Counted from the stretch's first letter, positions 23,895 to 30,445 are shown. The stretch is DNA of 64,000 nucleotides from Halorubrum tebenquichense DSM 14210 (GCF_000337415.1 NZ_AOJD01000047.1:1309-65308); one strand, 5' to 3'. The notes: generated by a model from the letters alone, not told the origin. Numbers and translations: made by a program.

Positions 23895-23994
23895 GACCCG
23901 GAGGACGGTCGCGCTCGCGGTACCGAATCGAGCAGGGAGGCCGTCGGATTCTCAGCCGCTCACTACGACGTGATTCGTTCCGGTGACACGGCCG

Positions 23995-24235
23995 CCGAAG
24001 CCCCAGCCGCGAGGACTCGCGCGGCTCGCCGCGCGCTTCAGTCGCTCACTCCGTTCGCTCCTTCCAGTGCTTGCTTCGCCGTGCTTCGTCCTCCCGACTG
24101 CCCCTTCGAGTCCCACCTGACCGCACAGCACCTCACGCCTCCCCAGCCTCGCGGCTCCCTCCGGTCGCCGCGTCCCTCGCGCGTGCGACTCGCGCCCTGT
24201 GGGCGCTCGTCGGCACGCGCCACCGCAGATGGTTT
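23995..24235 (+). repeat. Structured intergenic repeat element, copy 1
   Basis: About 240 bp between two convergent genes, sharing ordered blocks with 30178-30445: CCGAAGCCCCAG-CGCGAGG, then GACTGCCCCTTCGAGTCCC, CGCACAGCACC, CACGCCTCCCCAGCCTCG, CTCGCGCGTGC and GGCACGCGCCACCGC. Two hairpins are visible: a long imperfect one between the first two blocks, and a second with outer stem 24179-24186/24213-24220 and inner stem GCGCCC/GGGCGC (24192-24197/24201-24206, TGT loop). Frames through it are open but unlike proteins. It fills the gap 23895-24253, with nothing else supported. Confidence 0.75.
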
Positions 24236-24253
24236 AAAAAGAGTCGTCGCCGC

Positions 24254-25039
24254 TCAGAACCGTCGGAGCTGCTCTTCGAGGCAGACGGTGACGATCGACT
24301 TCGCGATGGCGGCCCCGCCGCCGATCGGGTCGAGTTTCGTCTCGCCGAGGCGCTCGGCGTAGCGGATCGGGCGCTCACGCACGTCGTAGCCGCGCATCAG
24401 CGGCCGGATGAGGAGTTCGGCGGAGAGGCCGGTGTTCTCGGTCCAGCCGATGTCCTCGACGACCTCGCGGCGGTACGCGCGCATTCCGGTGGTGGTGTCG
24501 TGGACGCGCTCGCCCATCAGGAGGGAGGCGAGCGCCGCGAACGCGTGGTTGCCGAACCGGTTGAACGCGGGCATCGCTTCCGCGCCGTGGTAGAGCCGGT
24601 CGCCGCTCACCACGTCCGCGCCGTCGTTGATCTCGGCGAGGAACTCCGGGAGCGCCTCCATCGGATACGTGTCGTCGCAGTCGGTCGTGACGACCACGGG
24701 GCGGTCGGGCGTCAAGACCGCCTCCCGAACGGCGACGCCGTACCCCTGCGGCTCCTGCTCGATGACCGTCGCGCCGTGTCCCCGTGCGATTTCCGGCGTC
24801 CGGTCCGAGGAGCCGTCGACGCAGACGACCTCCGCCTCCCCGTCGGTGACCTCGTCGATGTCCTCAAGGACCGTCGCGATCGCCTCCTCCTCGTTGTACG
24901 TTCCCATCACGACGCTGAGGTCCGCGAAGGTGTACGGTTCGGCGGCCTCGTCGGTCGCCTCGTCCGCGTCGCTCGCCGCGTCGGCGTCGCCGTCGACGGC
25001 GGCCGCGGACCCGTTCGTCGCGTGCGCTGAGTCGCTCAT
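24254..25039 (-). CDS. Polyprenyl-phosphate glycosyltransferase, GT2 (Dpm1/AglJ-like)
   Basis: 261 aa from the ATG at 25039; the longer frame to 25060 lacks support. After a disordered acidic N-terminus (about 40 residues) comes a GT2 A-fold: LSVVMGTYNEEEAIATVLED, VVCVDGSSDRTPEIARGHGA, GYGVAVREAV, VVTTDCDDTYPMEALPEFLA (DCDD in place of DXD), and DTTTGMRAYRREVVEDIGW. It lacks membrane helices, as the soluble dolichyl-phosphate hexose synthases do. It likely makes a lipid-linked sugar donor that a GT39-like enzyme could use outside. Operator D sits 33-48 nt upstream of the start. Confidence 0.85.
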   Translation of the reverse strand: MSDSAHATNGSAAAVDGDADAASDADEATDEAAEPYTFADLSVVMGTYNEEEAIATVLEDIDEVTDGEAEVVCVDGSSDRTPEIARGHGATVIEQEPQGYGVAVREAVLTPDRPVVVTTDCDDTYPMEALPEFLAEINDGADVVSGDRLYHGAEAMPAFNRFGNHAFAALASLLMGERVHDTTTGMRAYRREVVEDIGWTENTGLSAELLIRPLMRGYDVRERPIRYAERLGETKLDPIGGGAAIAKSIVTVCLEEQLRRF

Positions 25040-25071
25040 TACCCGGAACTCCGCCCGCACGCACTTGACTT

Positions 25072-25087
25072 TTTAGGTTTACCTAAA
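25072..25087 (-). promoter_or_regulatory. Iron-box-like operator D
   Basis: TTTAGG-TTTA-CCTAAA on the plus strand, in the 65-bp gap between the GMC oxidoreductase stop (25105) and the glycosyltransferase start (25039). On the minus strand CTAATTTAGG covers the left flank and may double as TATA element. It would regulate the glycosyltransferase separately from the genes upstream. Confidence 0.75.
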
Positions 25088-25104
25088 TTAGTGGCGGCGA
25101 GCCG

Positions 25105-26754
25105 TCACGTCCGGTCGCCGAGCCAGCCGGCCACGTCGTCGCCGACGCGGAGCGCGAGCGCGGCGATGGTGAGCGTGGGGTTCATCGCGCCGCTCGTCGG
25201 GAAGACGGAGCTGGAGGCGATCCAGCAGTTTTCGAGGTCGTGAGTCCGGCAGTCGGCGTCGACGACGCCCCGATCGGGGTCGTCGCTCATCCGCGTCGTC
25301 CCCATGTGGTGGTAGGCGGGTCCGGTGGCGTCCGGGCCGGCGACCCACTCGACGTCGGCCCCGAGTTCTTCGAGGACCTCCACTTGGATCTCGTTGGCCC
25401 GTTCGATCGTGTCGAGCGCGCGGTCGCCGACGGTCCAGTCGATCTCGGGGATGGGGTTGCCGCGGTCGTCGGTCCGGTCGTCGGCGAGCGTGATCCGGCT
25501 GTCGGCGTCGGGGAGCTGCTCGACGAGCGCGCCCATCGCGACGTGGTTCCCGTACTCGCCGCGCAGGCGCTCTAAGAGGGGGTCGCCCCAGTCGTCGCCC
25601 GTCAGCGCCGACTCCACCGGCGAGGGGCCGGCGTAGTTGAAGAACTCCAGTTTGAACGGAGCCTGCGTCTCGTCGGCCTCGTCGTAGAACTGGTCGCAGG
25701 CGCTGGTGTAGAAGCCGACGTGGTTCTGTCGCGTCGGCTCGTCGAGCGTCCCGCCCGCCCCCGCGAACAGGTGGTCCATGAAGAACCGCCCGACCGCCCC
25801 GCTGGCGTTCGCCAGCCCGTCGGGGTAGCGGTCGGACGCGGAGAGCAGGAGGAGCCGCGGCGTCTCCACCCCGCCGGCGGCGACGACGAACGCGTCCGCT
25901 TCCTGTCTGTGCGTCTCGCCGTCGGGCGTCGCGTAGACGGCCGCGGTCACCCGGTCGTCGCCGTCGTGGTCGAGCCGCTCGACCGGCGCGCGGTCGATCA
26001 CGGTCGCGCCCGCGTCCTCGGCGCGCTCGACGTGGACCGTCGCGTCGTACTTCGCGCCCGAGGGACACACCGGCTGGCAGGTGCCGTAGCCGACGCAGGC
26101 CGACCGCCCGTCGTACGCCTCGGAGTTGCGCGCGTTCGGCACCGAGTGCATGTCGATCCCGACCGCCTCGCAGGCCTCGGCGAACAGCGAGTCGCTGTGG
26201 GACGGCTCGAACGCCGGCATCGGGTGCGGCTCCTCCCGGGGCGGCGCGTAGGGGTTGTCGGACGCGCCCGCGACGCCGAGTTCGCGCTCCGCCTCGGCGT
26301 AGTAGGGCCGCAGGTCCGCGTAGTCGATCGGCCAGTCGGGACCCGCGCCGCGCTCGGCTCCGGAGTTGAAGTCGTCCTCGTGGAGCCGCATCACCATCCC
26401 CTGCCAGTGGAGCGTCGACCCGCCGACGCCCTTCACGCGGGCGTGGTTCAGCGGGTAATCCCACTCCGTCGACCCGGCGTTCTCGTAGGCGTCGCGCGCG
26501 CCGCCCACGTCCCACACGTCGGGGCGGCCGTAGGACGGCCGGATCGCCCGCTCCTGTCGCGCGAGCCGGTCCGCGGGATCGAAGCGCGGCCCGGCGTCGA
26601 GTATCACCACCTCGCGGTCGCCCGCCAGCCGGTCGGCGACGAGCGCCCCCGCGGGCCCCGCGCCGACGACGCAGACGTCCGCGTCGGCGACGGGCGTCCG
26701 GTCCACCGCGGCCGCGTTCCCGGCGCTCCCCGCCGGCCCGTCTCCCGCGCTCAT
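25105..26754 (-). CDS. GMC-family FAD oxidoreductase (gluconate/sugar dehydrogenase flavoprotein type)
   Basis: 549 aa. The FAD-binding motif is VCVVGAGPAGALVADRLAGD; KGVGGSTLHWQGMVMRLHED is the GMC substrate/flavin signature. A CVGYGTCQPVCPSGAKYDAT stretch has three closely spaced Cys, as in gluconate 2-dehydrogenase large subunits. The C-terminal part includes YHHMGTTRMSDDPDRGVV with the catalytic His region and NPTLTIAALALRVGDD. It overlaps the subunit-3-like gene by 4 bp (ATGA), so the two form a complex-encoding operon. The partner carries a Tat signal and this subunit does not, suggesting co-export. Electron acceptor and sugar are unknown; no cytochrome subunit is nearby. Confidence 0.85.
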   Translation of the reverse strand: MSAGDGPAGSAGNAAAVDRTPVADADVCVVGAGPAGALVADRLAGDREVVILDAGPRFDPADRLARQERAIRPSYGRPDVWDVGGARDAYENAGSTEWDYPLNHARVKGVGGSTLHWQGMVMRLHEDDFNSGAERGAGPDWPIDYADLRPYYAEAERELGVAGASDNPYAPPREEPHPMPAFEPSHSDSLFAEACEAVGIDMHSVPNARNSEAYDGRSACVGYGTCQPVCPSGAKYDATVHVERAEDAGATVIDRAPVERLDHDGDDRVTAAVYATPDGETHRQEADAFVVAAGGVETPRLLLLSASDRYPDGLANASGAVGRFFMDHLFAGAGGTLDEPTRQNHVGFYTSACDQFYDEADETQAPFKLEFFNYAGPSPVESALTGDDWGDPLLERLRGEYGNHVAMGALVEQLPDADSRITLADDRTDDRGNPIPEIDWTVGDRALDTIERANEIQVEVLEELGADVEWVAGPDATGPAYHHMGTTRMSDDPDRGVVDADCRTHDLENCWIASSSVFPTSGAMNPTLTIAALALRVGDDVAGWLGDRT

Positions 26755-27317
26755 CGCGGCCCCCGCCGGTAGCTCTCTGCGCCGCCCGGATGCCCCTGCG
26801 GGTTCTCGATGCCCACCAGTTCGCCGCCGGTCGGGGAGGCGTAGAACGCGAGCAGCAGTTCGTTGACGACGTAGTAGCGGACCCGCTCGGCGGTCGTCCC
26901 GTCCGGGTCCTCGTCGGCGATATCAGCGCCGACCTCCCTGAGGTGTCGGTCGCGGACCGCGGGGTCGAGGTCGGCGACCGCGCCGCCGTGCCACGACCGG
27001 GCGAGCCGGTTCAGCTCCGCGACCGCCTCGCGGACGCCCGCCGCGTGCGCGGAGCCGTCGAGCCTGCCGTCGAGGAACCCGTCGACGAACTCCTCGACCC
27101 CAGTGGCGTCGTCGGGGTAGACGACCGCCGCGACGGCGGTCAGGGTCTCGCGGACCGTCTCGTCGTCGGCGGGCGCGTCGTCTCCGGTCCCGTCGCCTCC
27201 CGAGTCGCCGCCGGCGTCGCGGCCGCGGTCCGCGGCGACGCGCGCGCCGAGCGCGACCCCGCCGCTCGCGCCGAGGGCGGCCAGCGCCGCCGCCGCGTCG
27301 CGCCGCGTCAGTTCCAT
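26751..27317 (-). CDS. Gluconate 2-dehydrogenase subunit 3-like protein with Tat signal
   Basis: 188 aa from the ATG at 27317. MELTRRDAAAALAALGASGG is a Tat signal with its twin arginines, so the protein and probably the bound flavoprotein are exported. The mature part has the helical pattern of the subunit 3 family (LTAVAAVVYPDDATGVEEFV, then VREAVAELNRLARSWHGGAV, ending with ELVGIENPQGHPGGAESYRR). The longer frame to 27332 would start inside operator E and is rejected. Operator E ends 7 nt upstream and a TATA-like TATATTAAT lies further upstream, giving a leaderless message. Confidence 0.8.
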   Translation of the reverse strand: MELTRRDAAAALAALGASGGVALGARVAADRGRDAGGDSGGDGTGDDAPADDETVRETLTAVAAVVYPDDATGVEEFVDGFLDGRLDGSAHAAGVREAVAELNRLARSWHGGAVADLDPAVRDRHLREVGADIADEDPDGTTAERVRYYVVNELLLAFYASPTGGELVGIENPQGHPGGAESYRRGPR

Positions 27318-27323
27318 AGAGGT

Positions 27324-27339
27324 TTTAGGCATCCCTAAA
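27324..27339 (-). promoter_or_regulatory. Iron-box-like operator E
   Basis: TTTAGG-CATC-CCTAAA between a minus-strand TATA-like element (TATATTAAT, about 27340-27349) and the ATG at 27317. It lies in the divergent region shared with the permease gene (start 27418), so it might also affect the permease promoter, though it is about 80 bp from that start. Confidence 0.75.
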
Positions 27340-27417
27340 TTAATATATCCGTCGGAGCGCGATCGGAACCCCTAACGGCGGTTGCGTCCATCCTTCGACC
27401 GACAGGCGTCCCCGACC

Positions 27418-29028
27418 ATGAGCCCGATAACCCGGATCCGCGACCGGCTGACCGACGGGGAGGACCGAGTACCGCTGGGGCTGACGCTGCTGTGTGCGGC
27501 GATCGCGGCCGTCCTCGTCTTCCCGCTGGCGTGGCTCGTGATCGAGGCGGTCACCGTCGATCCCGCGCGCGCCGTCGAACTCACCCTCAGCGTCCGCACC
27601 GCCGAGACCGTCGTCAACAGCCTCCTCCTGATGGTCGGCGTCACGGCGCTGTCGATCGCGATCGGCGTCCCGCTCGCGTACCTCACCGCCCGGACCGACC
27701 TCCCGTTCCGGCGGTTCTGGGCGGTGGCGGCCGCCCTCCCGCTCGTCGTGCCCAGCTACGTCGGCGCGTTCTCGTTCGTCTCCGCGTTCGGCCCCCGCGG
27801 GGAGTTCCACGAGATTCTCTCGCCGCTCGGGATCGAGCGGGTTCCGGAGATATACGGCCTCCCCGGGTCGATACTCGTCATCACGCTGTACACGTACCCC
27901 TACGTCTACCTGACGACGCGGGCCGCGCTGCTGTCGTTCGACACCACGCTGTTGGAGGCGGCGCGGACGCTGAACCACGGTCGCCTCGCGTCGTTCCGCC
28001 GGGTGACGCTGCCCGCGATCCGCCCGGCGATCGCCGCCGGGTCGCTGCTCGCGGCGCTGTACGCGGTCTCCGACTTCGGGACGCCGTCGATCATGCGGCT
28101 GTCGGTGTTCACCCGGCAGATATACGTCGAGTACAACTCCTTCGGGAGCGACTACGCCGCGCTGCTCTCCTTACAGCTGCTCGTCGTCGTGCTGTTCGTG
28201 CTCGCGCTGGAGTGGCTCGTGCGCTCCGACGCGTCCTCGCACGGCGACGACGCGGGCCGCACCGACGATCGGGTGTCGCTCGGCCGCCTCCGGTGGCCGG
28301 CGACGCTCCTACCCGCGGGGGTGTCCGCGCTCGCGCTCCTCGTCCCGCTGTGGATCCTCGGCCTGTGGCTGCTCCGGTCGGAGGCGGGCCGCCGCCCGTC
28401 GATGGCGTTCGAGCCGGTCTACGTGCTCAACTCGCTGTCGGTGTCGCTGGCGGCGGCGGTCGTCGCCGCGCTGGCGGCAATCCCCATCGCGTACTTCGCC
28501 GCGAACCACGACTCGCGGCTCGCCGTCCTCTTCGAGCGCGCGACGTACGTCGGCTTCGCGGTGCCCGGTATCGTCCTCGCGCTGGCGCTCGTCTACTTCG
28601 GCTCCGGCTACCTGCCGTGGATCTACCAGACGCTGCCGCTCCTCGTGTTCGCGTACGTCGTGCGTTTCCTCCCGCAGGCGGTCGGGTCGAGCCGCACGTC
28701 GATCCTCCAGGTCGACCCCCGGCTCGTGGAGGCGGGCCGGACGCTCGGCGAGTCCTCGATGGGGGCGTTCAAGCGGGTCACGCTCCCGCTCACCCGGTCG
28801 GGGATCGTCGCCGGGGCCGCCCTGGTGTTCCTCACCGCGATGAAGGAACTCCCCGTCACGCTGATCCTCCGCCCCTCCGGGTTCGAGACGATCGTCACCC
28901 AGATCTGGCGCGCGCAGGCGTCCGCGCTGTACCAGTACGCCGTGGTGCCGACGCTGATCCTGCTCGTCATCTCCGGCCTCTCGATGGTCGTCCTCCTCTC
29001 GCAAGAGGGCGGTCAAGAGGGACTGTAA
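27418..29028 (+). CDS. Fe3+-type ABC transporter permease (fused double domain)
   Basis: 536 aa from the ATG at 27418. About 12 membrane helices in two homologous halves. Each half has an EAA-type loop contacting the ATPase: around LLEAARTLNHGRLASFRRVT in the first and RLVEAGRTLGESSMGAFKRV in the second. This double-length FbpB/HitB/ThiP-like plan fits import of ferric iron or a small anion with the binding protein at 20531. A normal system needs an ATP-binding subunit; none lies in the neighbourhood, so it must be supplied from elsewhere. Divergent from the oxidoreductase operon with operator E between. Confidence 0.85.
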   Translation: MSPITRIRDRLTDGEDRVPLGLTLLCAAIAAVLVFPLAWLVIEAVTVDPARAVELTLSVRTAETVVNSLLLMVGVTALSIAIGVPLAYLTARTDLPFRRFWAVAAALPLVVPSYVGAFSFVSAFGPRGEFHEILSPLGIERVPEIYGLPGSILVITLYTYPYVYLTTRAALLSFDTTLLEAARTLNHGRLASFRRVTLPAIRPAIAAGSLLAALYAVSDFGTPSIMRLSVFTRQIYVEYNSFGSDYAALLSLQLLVVVLFVLALEWLVRSDASSHGDDAGRTDDRVSLGRLRWPATLLPAGVSALALLVPLWILGLWLLRSEAGRRPSMAFEPVYVLNSLSVSLAAAVVAALAAIPIAYFAANHDSRLAVLFERATYVGFAVPGIVLALALVYFGSGYLPWIYQTLPLLVFAYVVRFLPQAVGSSRTSILQVDPRLVEAGRTLGESSMGAFKRVTLPLTRSGIVAGAALVFLTAMKELPVTLILRPSGFETIVTQIWRAQASALYQYAVVPTLILLVISGLSMVVLLSQEGGQEGL

Positions 29029-29129
29029 CCCCCACCCCGGCCGGTTGGAGGAACGACCGCGCTCGACGTACCCCACCGACCGCGCTCGCGATCCCACACG
29101 TACTTACCCGCCACCGCCGACAGACCGGT

Positions 29130-30065
29130 ATGAAACTCGCCGATTCGCGCGTCCTCGTCACCGGCGGAGCCGGGCTGGTCGGAAGCCACCTCGCCGCGAG
29201 CCTGCTCGACCGCGGGGCGACCGTCCGCGTCGCCGACGACCTCTCGAAGGGGGCCCGCGACCGCGTGCCGGACGGGGCCGCGTTCGTCGAGGCGGACCTG
29301 ACCGACCCCGACGAGGTCGCCCGCGCGGTGACCGGCGACCTCGACATCGTCTTCCACTTCGCGGCGTACACGGACACGAACTACGACGACGACCGCGTCC
29401 TCTTCGAGGAGAACACCGAGATGACGTACAACGTCTTAGACCGGATGCGCGAGATCGGTATCGACCGCTTCGCGTTCACCTCCTCGTCGACCGTGTACGG
29501 CGAAGCGCCGCGGCCGACCCCGGAGGACTACGCCCCCCTCGAACCCATCTCGATCTACGGCTCCTCGAAGCTCGCCGACGAGGGGTTGATCTCGACGCAC
29601 GCCCACTCGTACGGGATTCAGTCGTGGGTGTTCCGGTTCGCGAACATCGTCGGGCCGCACCAGCGCGGGAACGTGATCCCCGACTTCATCGAGAAGCTGG
29701 ACGCCGACCCGAGCGACCTCGAGATCCTCGGCGACGGCCGGCAGGAGAAGTCGTACATGCACGTCACCGAGTGTGTCGACGCCATCCGGCACGTCGTCGA
29801 GACCGCGGACGACGAGTACAACGTCTACAATCTCGGGACGCGGACGACCACGTCGGTGACACGAATCGCGGACATCGTCAGCGAGGAGCTGGGCGTCGCC
29901 CCCGAGTACTCCTACACCGGCGGCGACCGCGGGTGGACGGGCGACGTGCCGAAGATGCGGCTGTCGATCGAGAACCTGTCCGCGTTGGGGTGGGACCCCT
30001 CTATCGAGAGCGACGAGGCGGTCCGGCGCGCGGCGCGGCAGTTGATCGACGAAATCGTCGACTGA
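29130..30065 (+). CDS. NAD-dependent sugar epimerase/dehydratase (GalE-like SDR)
   Basis: 311 aa extended SDR. RVLVTGGAGLVGSHLAASLL is the NAD-binding motif, DIVFHFAAYTDTNYDDDRVL follows, AFTSSSTVYGEA holds the catalytic Ser/Thr, and PISIYGSSKLADEGL holds the YxxxK pair. NIVGPHQRGNVIPDFIEKL and the late LGWDPSIESDEAVRRAARQL segment are as in UDP-glucose 4-epimerase relatives. It probably converts a nucleotide sugar. It is placed right after the permease (about 100 bp) and could serve the same glycan pathway, but it has no iron box of its own. Confidence 0.82.
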   Translation: MKLADSRVLVTGGAGLVGSHLAASLLDRGATVRVADDLSKGARDRVPDGAAFVEADLTDPDEVARAVTGDLDIVFHFAAYTDTNYDDDRVLFEENTEMTYNVLDRMREIGIDRFAFTSSSTVYGEAPRPTPEDYAPLEPISIYGSSKLADEGLISTHAHSYGIQSWVFRFANIVGPHQRGNVIPDFIEKLDADPSDLEILGDGRQEKSYMHVTECVDAIRHVVETADDEYNVYNLGTRTTTSVTRIADIVSEELGVAPEYSYTGGDRGWTGDVPKMRLSIENLSALGWDPSIESDEAVRRAARQLIDEIVD

Positions 30066-30126
30066 GACCCGGACGAGCGGCGGTACGTGGCTGTCTTCGT
30101 CGAGATTGACTCTATACCCGAGACCA

Positions 30127-30142
30127 CCGAAGCCCCAGTCGC
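30127..30142 (+). repeat. Partial duplicate of the intergenic repeat start
   Basis: CCGAAGCCCCAGTCGC occurs here and again 51 bp downstream at 30178 as the start of repeat copy 2, so the 5' end of the element is duplicated in tandem. Confidence 0.6.
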
Positions 30143-30177
30143 TCGGCTATACGTGACTCTCTCCGAGAACACGACTG

Positions 30178-30445
30178 CCGAAGCCCCAGTCGCGAGGCGG
30201 GCAGACGCTCGTTGCGCTCCTCGCTCGCGTTGCTCGCTGCGGTGCTTCCGTCGCCTCTGCCCGCCTCGCGACTGCCCCTTCGAGTCCCGCCCGCACCGCT
30301 CCGCACAGCACCGCACGCCTCCCCAGCCTCGTCGCTCGCTCCGGGCTCCCTTCGGTCGCCCGTCCGCTCGCGACTCCCTCGCGCGTGCCGTCTCGCGGTC
30401 GCCGGAGGCGACCGCTCTCGGGCACGCGCCACCGCGGATCGGTTG
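30178..30445 (+). repeat. Structured intergenic repeat element, copy 2
   Basis: About 270 bp between the epimerase and argS, in the same orientation as copy 1. A perfect 19-bp stem pairs 30187-30205 with 30256-30274 (CAGTCGCGAGGCGGGCAGA with its complement) around a 50-nt loop. A second hairpin has outer stem GCGCGTGCC/GGCACGCGC (30381-30389/30421-30429) and inner stem GCGGTCGCC/GGCGACCGC (30395-30403/30407-30415, GGA loop). The inner stem differs entirely from that of copy 1 yet still pairs perfectly. It fills the gap 30066-30519 along with the partial duplicate at 30127. Confidence 0.78.

Follow-up and report, generated by a model that had tools for sequence, protein, structure and literature searches.

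Why do the hairpins of a repeat stay paired while the sequences of their stems change? The question is raised by two intergenic repeat copies in a 64,000-nt stretch of the genome of Halorubrum tebenquichense DSM 14210 (hereafter, the window). A preliminary description of this DNA had read the compensating changes as a signature of selection on structure, and had offered a non-coding RNA (ncRNA) or a mobile element of the MITE or REP type among the possible explanations. Here, we report that both copies are members of a large family of interspersed non-coding repeats, and we consider how pairing is preserved in this family and what the elements may be.

Anatomy of the Two Copies

The copies lie at about 23994-24226 (copy 1) and 30177-30435 (copy 2) and, as originally described, have the ordered blocks GCCGAAGCCCCAG, CTGCCCCTTCGAGTCCC, CGCACAGCACC, CACGCCTCCCCAGCCTC, TCCCTCGCGCGTGC, and GCACGCGCCACCGC in common; the first of these blocks has three matches within the window, against 0.04 expected by chance. 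In the plus orientation, the element consists of a leader (...AACACCNCC), the long hairpin H1, whose foot CGAAG/CTTCG carries an invariant C4/C4 bubble, the core CTGCCCCTTCGAGTCCC, a C-rich linker, CACGCCTCCCCAGCCTC, hairpin H2, TCCCTCGCGCG, hairpin H3, and ACCGC (Table 1). H1 alone occupies about 110 nt and the whole element about 250 bp. In other words, there are three hairpins and not the two of the earlier layout, which had overlooked the middle one, H2, the most variable of the three, and had also lacked the conserved 5' leader that precedes H1. In H3, the inner stems agree exactly with those first noted. The first hairpin is indeed paired in copy 2 and imperfect in copy 1, and its arms in copy 2, previously given as a perfect 19-bp stem, were measured as 30 nt with 87% complementarity (inverted repeat I17). 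Folded as single strands, copy 2 is clearly above chance (z = -4.1) and copy 1 marginal (z = -1.7); the proof of structure comes from the family, not from the two window copies. Copy 1 is flanked by two convergent genes, which encode a PMT_2/DUF7846 protein and a glycosyltransferase of family 2, and copy 2 lies between argS and a gene ending at 30065, by eye a putative NAD-dependent epimerase/dehydratase, whose scanned frame had no Pfam match.

Table 1. Features of the two repeat copies, in window coordinates.
Feature	Position	Strand	Basis
Copy 1, conserved 5' leader (-18..-1; family consensus TCGACACGAACACCNCC)	23979..23996	+	position frequencies, 75 + 68 copies
Copy 1, hairpin H1, imperfect; base CGAAG/CTTCG, C4/C4 bubble	23996..24108	+	family alignment A1, helices 1-4
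Copy 1, core linker CTGCCCCTTCGAGTCCCACC, overlaps 3' foot of H1	24098..24117	+	near-invariant columns; CCCCTTTCAGTCCCACC outside genus
Copy 1, linker CACGCCTCCCCAGCCTC	24134..24150	+	shared block, family alignment
Copy 1, hairpin H2 (CGCGGC/GCCGCG)	24150..24172	+	arm-swap tests; changed apex and adjacent 49-bp insert in G015 orthologue
Copy 1, linker TCCCTCGCGCG	24173..24183	+	family alignment
Copy 1, hairpin H3: outer GCGCGTGC/GCACGCGC, inner GCGCCC/GGGCGC	24179..24220	+	sequence, family covariation
Copy 1, 3' end motif ACCGC(A)	24221..24226	+	position frequencies
Partial extra unit CCGAAGCCCCAGTCGCTCGG...ACACGACTGCC preceding copy 2	30126..30179	+	third match in the window, with 3 mismatches; other copies preceded by comparable tandem units
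Copy 2, conserved 5' leader	30162..30179	+	position frequencies
Copy 2, hairpin H1	30179..30282	+	inverted repeat I17, family covariation, folding
Copy 2, core linker CTGCCCCTTCGAGTCCCGCC	30272..30291	+	family alignment
Copy 2, linker CACGCCTCCCCAGCCTC	30314..30330	+	shared block
Copy 2, hairpin H2 (GTCGC...GCGAC)	30331..30374	+	arm-swap tests
Copy 2, linker TCCCTCGCGCG	30375..30385	+	family alignment
Copy 2, hairpin H3: outer GCGCGTGCC/GGCACGCGC, inner GCGGTCGCC/GGCGACCGC	30381..30429	+	sequence, family covariation, folding
Copy 2, 3' end motif ACCGC	30431..30435	+	position frequencies

Size and Distribution of the Family

The genome of origin contains at least 46 matches (40 of 239 candidates were scored), and the family is present in all 53 genomes of the genus that were searched. 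The main census was a profile search of the first 2.4 Mb of a nearly complete relative (G015), in which genes were predicted with a codon-based caller made for this analysis. The 136 profile hits correspond to 115 loci, 95 of them longer than 200 bp, with 57 on the plus and 58 on the minus strand; none of the 115 overlaps a predicted gene, though 81% of the sequence is coding. Even spacing along the chromosome, tested over the 2.4 Mb, was not significant. The first 100 kb of G015 (C1:1-100000) is without any element, and each subsequent bin of 100 kb contains 2-8. The matches listed for nine nearly complete genomes are on the large chromosomal contigs. Hits on plasmids were few and partial, most of them on large replicons and only one on a Halorubrum plasmid, and the phage and viral-contig collections searched gave no matches.

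Beyond the genus, the core takes the form CCCCTTTCAGTCCCACC. This sequence was looked for by exact matching in a 257-Gb genome collection, and at least 120 stretches were found; among the 80 listed by title, 79 are haloarchaeal, and the single exception (L327) has no hairpin foot. In relatives, the unit of H1 and core may stand singly, form inverted pairs (Haloarcula L254), or be joined by H2 and H3 (Halobaculum, Haloparvum, and Haladaptatus). The inverted pairs of core units in L254, L261, L265, L269, and L281 (Haloarcula and others) have a spacer of about 30 nt and ends reading AACAGC..GAAAGCCCC and GGGGCTTTC..GCTGTT; the pair in Haloarcula L254 forms a very stable DNA fold (z = -11.6).

An Rfam search of the window and related loci found no RNA family that matches the element. 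It should be mentioned that the S15-Halobacteria ribosomal leader (Rfam RF03143), a known cis-regulatory RNA, lies near an element in another haloarchaeon (L247:39-100, minus strand). Openly accessible papers were searched by motif letters and by topic, and no description of the family was found; these hairpin elements are apparently previously undescribed.

Covariation between the Arms

Column covariation was measured on 54 aligned copies with shuffled controls. Standard pairs are formed by 96.9% of the stem cells, against 84.1% after shuffling, and cells changed on both sides number 299, against 91.3 (sd 7.0), a value reached in none of 500 shuffles. When the partner is slid by one column, pairing falls to about 30%. 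Because H2 is beyond the reach of column alignment, its pairing was covered by arm-swap tests, in which the transfer of an arm from one copy to another carries a penalty of 0.10-0.16 kcal/mol per nt for H1, H2, and H3 alike. The family tests thus bear out a structured, non-coding, interspersed, intergenic repeat with very strong covariation between its arms. The two findings that were to overturn this claim, a lack of covariation or an existing description, were both looked for: the covariation is significant, and no description was found.

One-sided stem changes are rare in the family alignment. They were counted per alignment column, because hairpin classes share systematic mismatches. On the plus strand, 12 changes give G·U and 31 give A·C when three register-shift columns are left out (32 and 34 with these columns included), and this excess of A·C has p = 0.005. 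The tRNA stems of the same genome, which served as a control, give 24 and 4, and the plus-strand counts depart from a tRNA-like ratio with p = 1.6e-17. The missing G·U excess disfavours the ncRNA reading for the plus strand.

Conserved Sites and Exchanged Hairpins

Twenty-five loci of the H. tebenquichense genome, copy 1 counted, have both flanks alignable to one place in G015, and 22 of these places are occupied by an element in the same orientation. The flanks are mostly 90-98% identical and are often alignable up to the element boundary. Among the 19 orthologous pairs that were parsed, three are identical or nearly so, six are mosaics, and ten are as different as random paralogues in all four segments. 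Copy 1 differs from its orthologue in the H1 arms, the H2 apex, and H3. In the L030 pair (G015 2014866), H2 alone differs, and its apex recurs at G015 569619. Exact H2 twins are found within G015 at 961969 and 2061027, 315099 and 1680372, 237442 and 452796, 2108699 and 1233625, and 1253524 and 999816; the H2 modules at 961969, 315099, 1680372, 237442, 2108699, and 1253524, each with its twin elsewhere in that genome, are all unlike their orthologues. The H2 of copy 2 recurs as an identical 42-nt module in L009 and L013, beside different H1 and H3. At the site upstream of argS, about 20 of 30 genomes have an element and the intact copies bear different hairpin sets; for example, L067 and L068 have near-identical abutting flanks and different hairpins. 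The H1, H2, and H3 distances are uncorrelated among 70 G015 copies (rho -0.04 to 0.00), and the linkers are nearly invariant across copies.

Hairpins are thus replaced as whole modules, both arms together, at conserved sites. Whole swaps with exact twins elsewhere in the genome imply that the arms travel together, and hairpins exchanged as units keep their pairing without new compensatory mutations. Covariation by itself is therefore no demonstration here of the selection on structure that had been concluded from it, since entire hairpins pass from one copy to another at sites that are fixed.

Identical H2 modules are shared by 76 per 10^4 pairs within G015, only slightly above the 55 between the two species. 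As these values are nearly equal, they do not require exchange to be recent or restricted to a single genome, and this comparison gives no clear support for recent concerted evolution within one genome. The H. tebenquichense assembly is of draft quality and a few of its copies contain Ns (L004 and L026), so that some mosaics could be assembly errors; the same mosaic pattern is seen in the nearly complete G015 and in other genomes at the argS site. Ns and short duplications occur within or beside the copies L004, L026, L051, L073, and L085, which suggests that draft assemblies break or become joined at their GC-rich hairpins.

A Small Double-Hairpin Element

A second repeat, 49-55 bp long, is composed of two hairpins with variable stems and a fixed linker, TGGCAG or TGGCTC. 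Of the 15 double hairpins in the 2.4 Mb of G015, 14 are located within or next to a three-hairpin element (1.8% of the sequence), and the same search with eight control linkers of like composition found none. The G015 orthologue of copy 1 (near 968500) has a 49-bp double-hairpin insert next to H2 that the window copy does not have; other examples are located at G015 822147, 1520506, and 128123, and in L025, L028, L061, L062, and L064. Insertion has occurred repeatedly at the same linkers (GACTC^CAGCGA...GAC^CTCGCGCG and GCGTCG^TCATCAG...GTGAAC^GCCTGCG). Like SMR-A of Haloquadratum (PMC3119063), the double hairpins are small, palindromic, and target another repeat; they are about half as long as SMR-A and have the fixed linker, and the likeness considered here is one of behaviour.

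Mobility and Comparison with Known Repeats

At the three sites that are empty in G015 (L007, L025, and L028), the entire intergenic region has been replaced, and comparison with G015 revealed no clean junction or target duplication. No Y1 transposase was matched in G015, and the 1.5 kb around each of 30 Y1 genes of the genus contained no element, where 4.8 were expected. Terminal inverted repeats were not seen in the Halorubrum form. In other words, transposition at present was not seen at the sites compared between species, and past spread is suggested by the copy number. The anatomy proposed for a MITE or REP fits the family; the terminal inverted repeats, clean insertions, target duplications, and associated Y1 transposase that would go with it were not found.

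PATEs are palindrome-associated transposable elements of Haloquadratum and other haloarchaea, whose near-terminal palindromes resemble the ends of IS605-type transposons and which show strain-specific insertions (PMC3119063); a PATE is also present in HRTV-DL1 (PMC10544981). Both they and the present elements are haloarchaeal, short, non-coding, and heterogeneous in sequence, have palindromes near their ends (here H1 and H3) without terminal inverted repeats or target duplications, and are targeted by small palindromic elements; at about 250 bp, with no locus overlapping a gene, our elements are too short for a transposase. In contrast to PATEs, the two outer hairpins H1 and H3 have no relation to each other, exchange affects the hairpins as modules, the sites are fixed between species (the three empty ones not being clean insertions), strain-specific insertion was not seen in this between-species comparison, and neither a Y1 link nor clean insertion was found. 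The REP/BIME repeats of bacteria, which are associated with RAYT transposases, are likewise GC-rich extragenic bubble hairpins with about a hundred copies per genome, and the Haloarcula-type relatives, outside the genus, form similar inverted pairs with a short spacer. Our elements, in contrast, are archaeal and far longer, with three different hairpins; H1 is not a palindrome of 20-40 nt with a conserved 5' tetranucleotide and has no GTAG-type foot, and no RAYT (Y1) gene flanked by the repeat was found in G015 or at the 30 Y1 loci. MITEs are also short, non-coding, and dispersed, and the inverted-pair forms of Haloarcula have inverted ends (AACAGCCAGAAAGCCCC...GGGGCTTTCTGGCTGTT); in the Halorubrum form, at the sites compared, terminal inverted repeats shared with a transposon and target duplications were absent, and no parent transposon was found. 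By anatomy, REP/BIME and PATE are the closest kinds, and the family, in which defining features of each were looked for and not found, is placed here among interspersed hairpin repeats and in neither of these kinds.

Genomic Context and Possible Role

The gene ends facing an element are 3' ends in 134 of 230 cases (p = 0.015), and convergent intergenic regions are occupied more often than divergent ones (35/384 vs. 16/392, p = 0.006). Tandem intergenic regions show no orientation bias (37 vs. 27, p = 0.26), and without such a bias a simple one-directional terminator is not favoured. The 3'-end excess, the convergent preference, and the orientation neutrality lend weak support to a strand-independent boundary role. 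We tentatively suggest a strand-independent boundary of transcription or a chromosome-structure site as the likeliest role, which is the weakest step of our explanation.

In 6 of 75 copies, the motif TTTATAA lies precisely at position -32; other copies have it at +11 to +14. It may mark a promoter, serve as an AT-rich site of opening, or have some other role; at -32 it looks promoter-like, and it plays no part in the DNA-element reading. A 47-63-nt unit that starts with CCGAAGCCCCAGYCGCTCGG, often contains TTTATAA, and ends in ...GACACGAACACCNCC is seen in tandem, sometimes exact, directly 5' of the element, not only before copy 2 (Table 1) but also at L006, L007, and L010 and at G015 1228072, 999816, and 787134.

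Proposed Explanation and Alternatives

We regard the family, with a probability of roughly 0.6, as old, chromosome-fixed DNA hairpin elements of a REP/PATE-like kind, for which transposition is not seen at present and which are reshuffled by ectopic gene conversion. The basic unit consists of H1, whose foot has the fixed C4/C4 bubble, and the core CCCCTT(T/C)(C/G)AGTCCC behind it; in this genus, H2 and H3 are attached as further hairpins. We infer that the initial spread was that of non-autonomous hairpin elements, in the manner of REPs and PATEs, and that the elements are now immobile. Haloarchaea are polyploid and have efficient gene conversion (PMC8223754, PMC11276520). Homologous ectopic exchange of this type between copies, with the conserved linkers serving as homology, would replace hairpins, and by carrying both arms at once it would keep pairing perfect while the sequence changes; that it acts on these elements is our reading of the swapped modules. 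The elements are probably retained as paired intergenic DNA hairpins, useful or harmless.

An unlikely alternative, in favour of which the massive covariation can be cited, is a multicopy family of structured ncRNA genes, expressed from a leader promoter on the plus strand or from the minus strand, with RNA structure under selection. The conserved leader, with its few TTTATAA motifs at -32, and the larger free space on the 5' than on the 3' side of the element agree with such genes, and the A·C excess on the plus strand, which is a G·U excess on the minus strand, would fit a minus-strand RNA. However, the leader and TATA box point to the plus strand, where G·U is not in excess; most copies have no strict TATA box, no Rfam family matches, entire stems have been substituted, and some of the linkers vary freely in length, as do some hairpins in general. 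Still less probable is that pairing is upheld purely by the mutational process (quasi-palindrome correction through template switching), without selection or exchange; we consider this very improbable. Double changes do far outnumber one-sided ones and A·C is as common as G·U, but switching within a hairpin can match its arms and cannot bring in the stem of another copy, whereas the replaced hairpins differ in length and are matched by twins at other loci, and the unpaired linkers are nonetheless invariant.

That the elements are still mobile, as non-autonomous transposons of the PATE or MITE type with a transposase acting in trans, also seems improbable. Their size, intergenic dispersal, hairpins near both ends, and lack of coding capacity would suit this reading, as would the small double hairpins that target the family as SMR-A targets PATEs in Haloquadratum (PMC3119063). 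On the contrary, the conservation of 22 of 25 sites between species, the replacement of whole intergenic regions at the other three, and the lack of terminal inverted repeats in the Halorubrum form, of Y1 in G015, of elements near Y1 loci, and of matches in phage and viral collections, with the one Halorubrum plasmid hit, all speak against present mobility. Comparably improbable is a bolder reading, in which a dedicated haloarchaeal system would both insert and exchange DNA hairpins with arbitrary stems at fixed linkers; each element would then be a changeable tandem of hairpin cassettes, and the three-hairpin elements and small double hairpins (hairpin-TGGCAG-hairpin) would be its products, with the linkers as its recognition sites.

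Implications

If old, fixed hairpin elements reshuffled by gene conversion are the correct explanation, a hairpin element not described before is present in more than 100 copies in haloarchaeal chromosomes, at intergenic sites that have stayed fixed in evolution. The family would also be a caution for RNA discovery, in that the exchange of whole hairpins between repeat copies can yield overwhelming covariation, and it is the missing G·U excess that exposes the exchange. In polyploid archaea, the dispersed copies would serve as natural markers by which ectopic gene conversion can be measured. The elements may also represent a class of archaeal transcription-boundary or chromosome-structure sites that can be tested by deletion.
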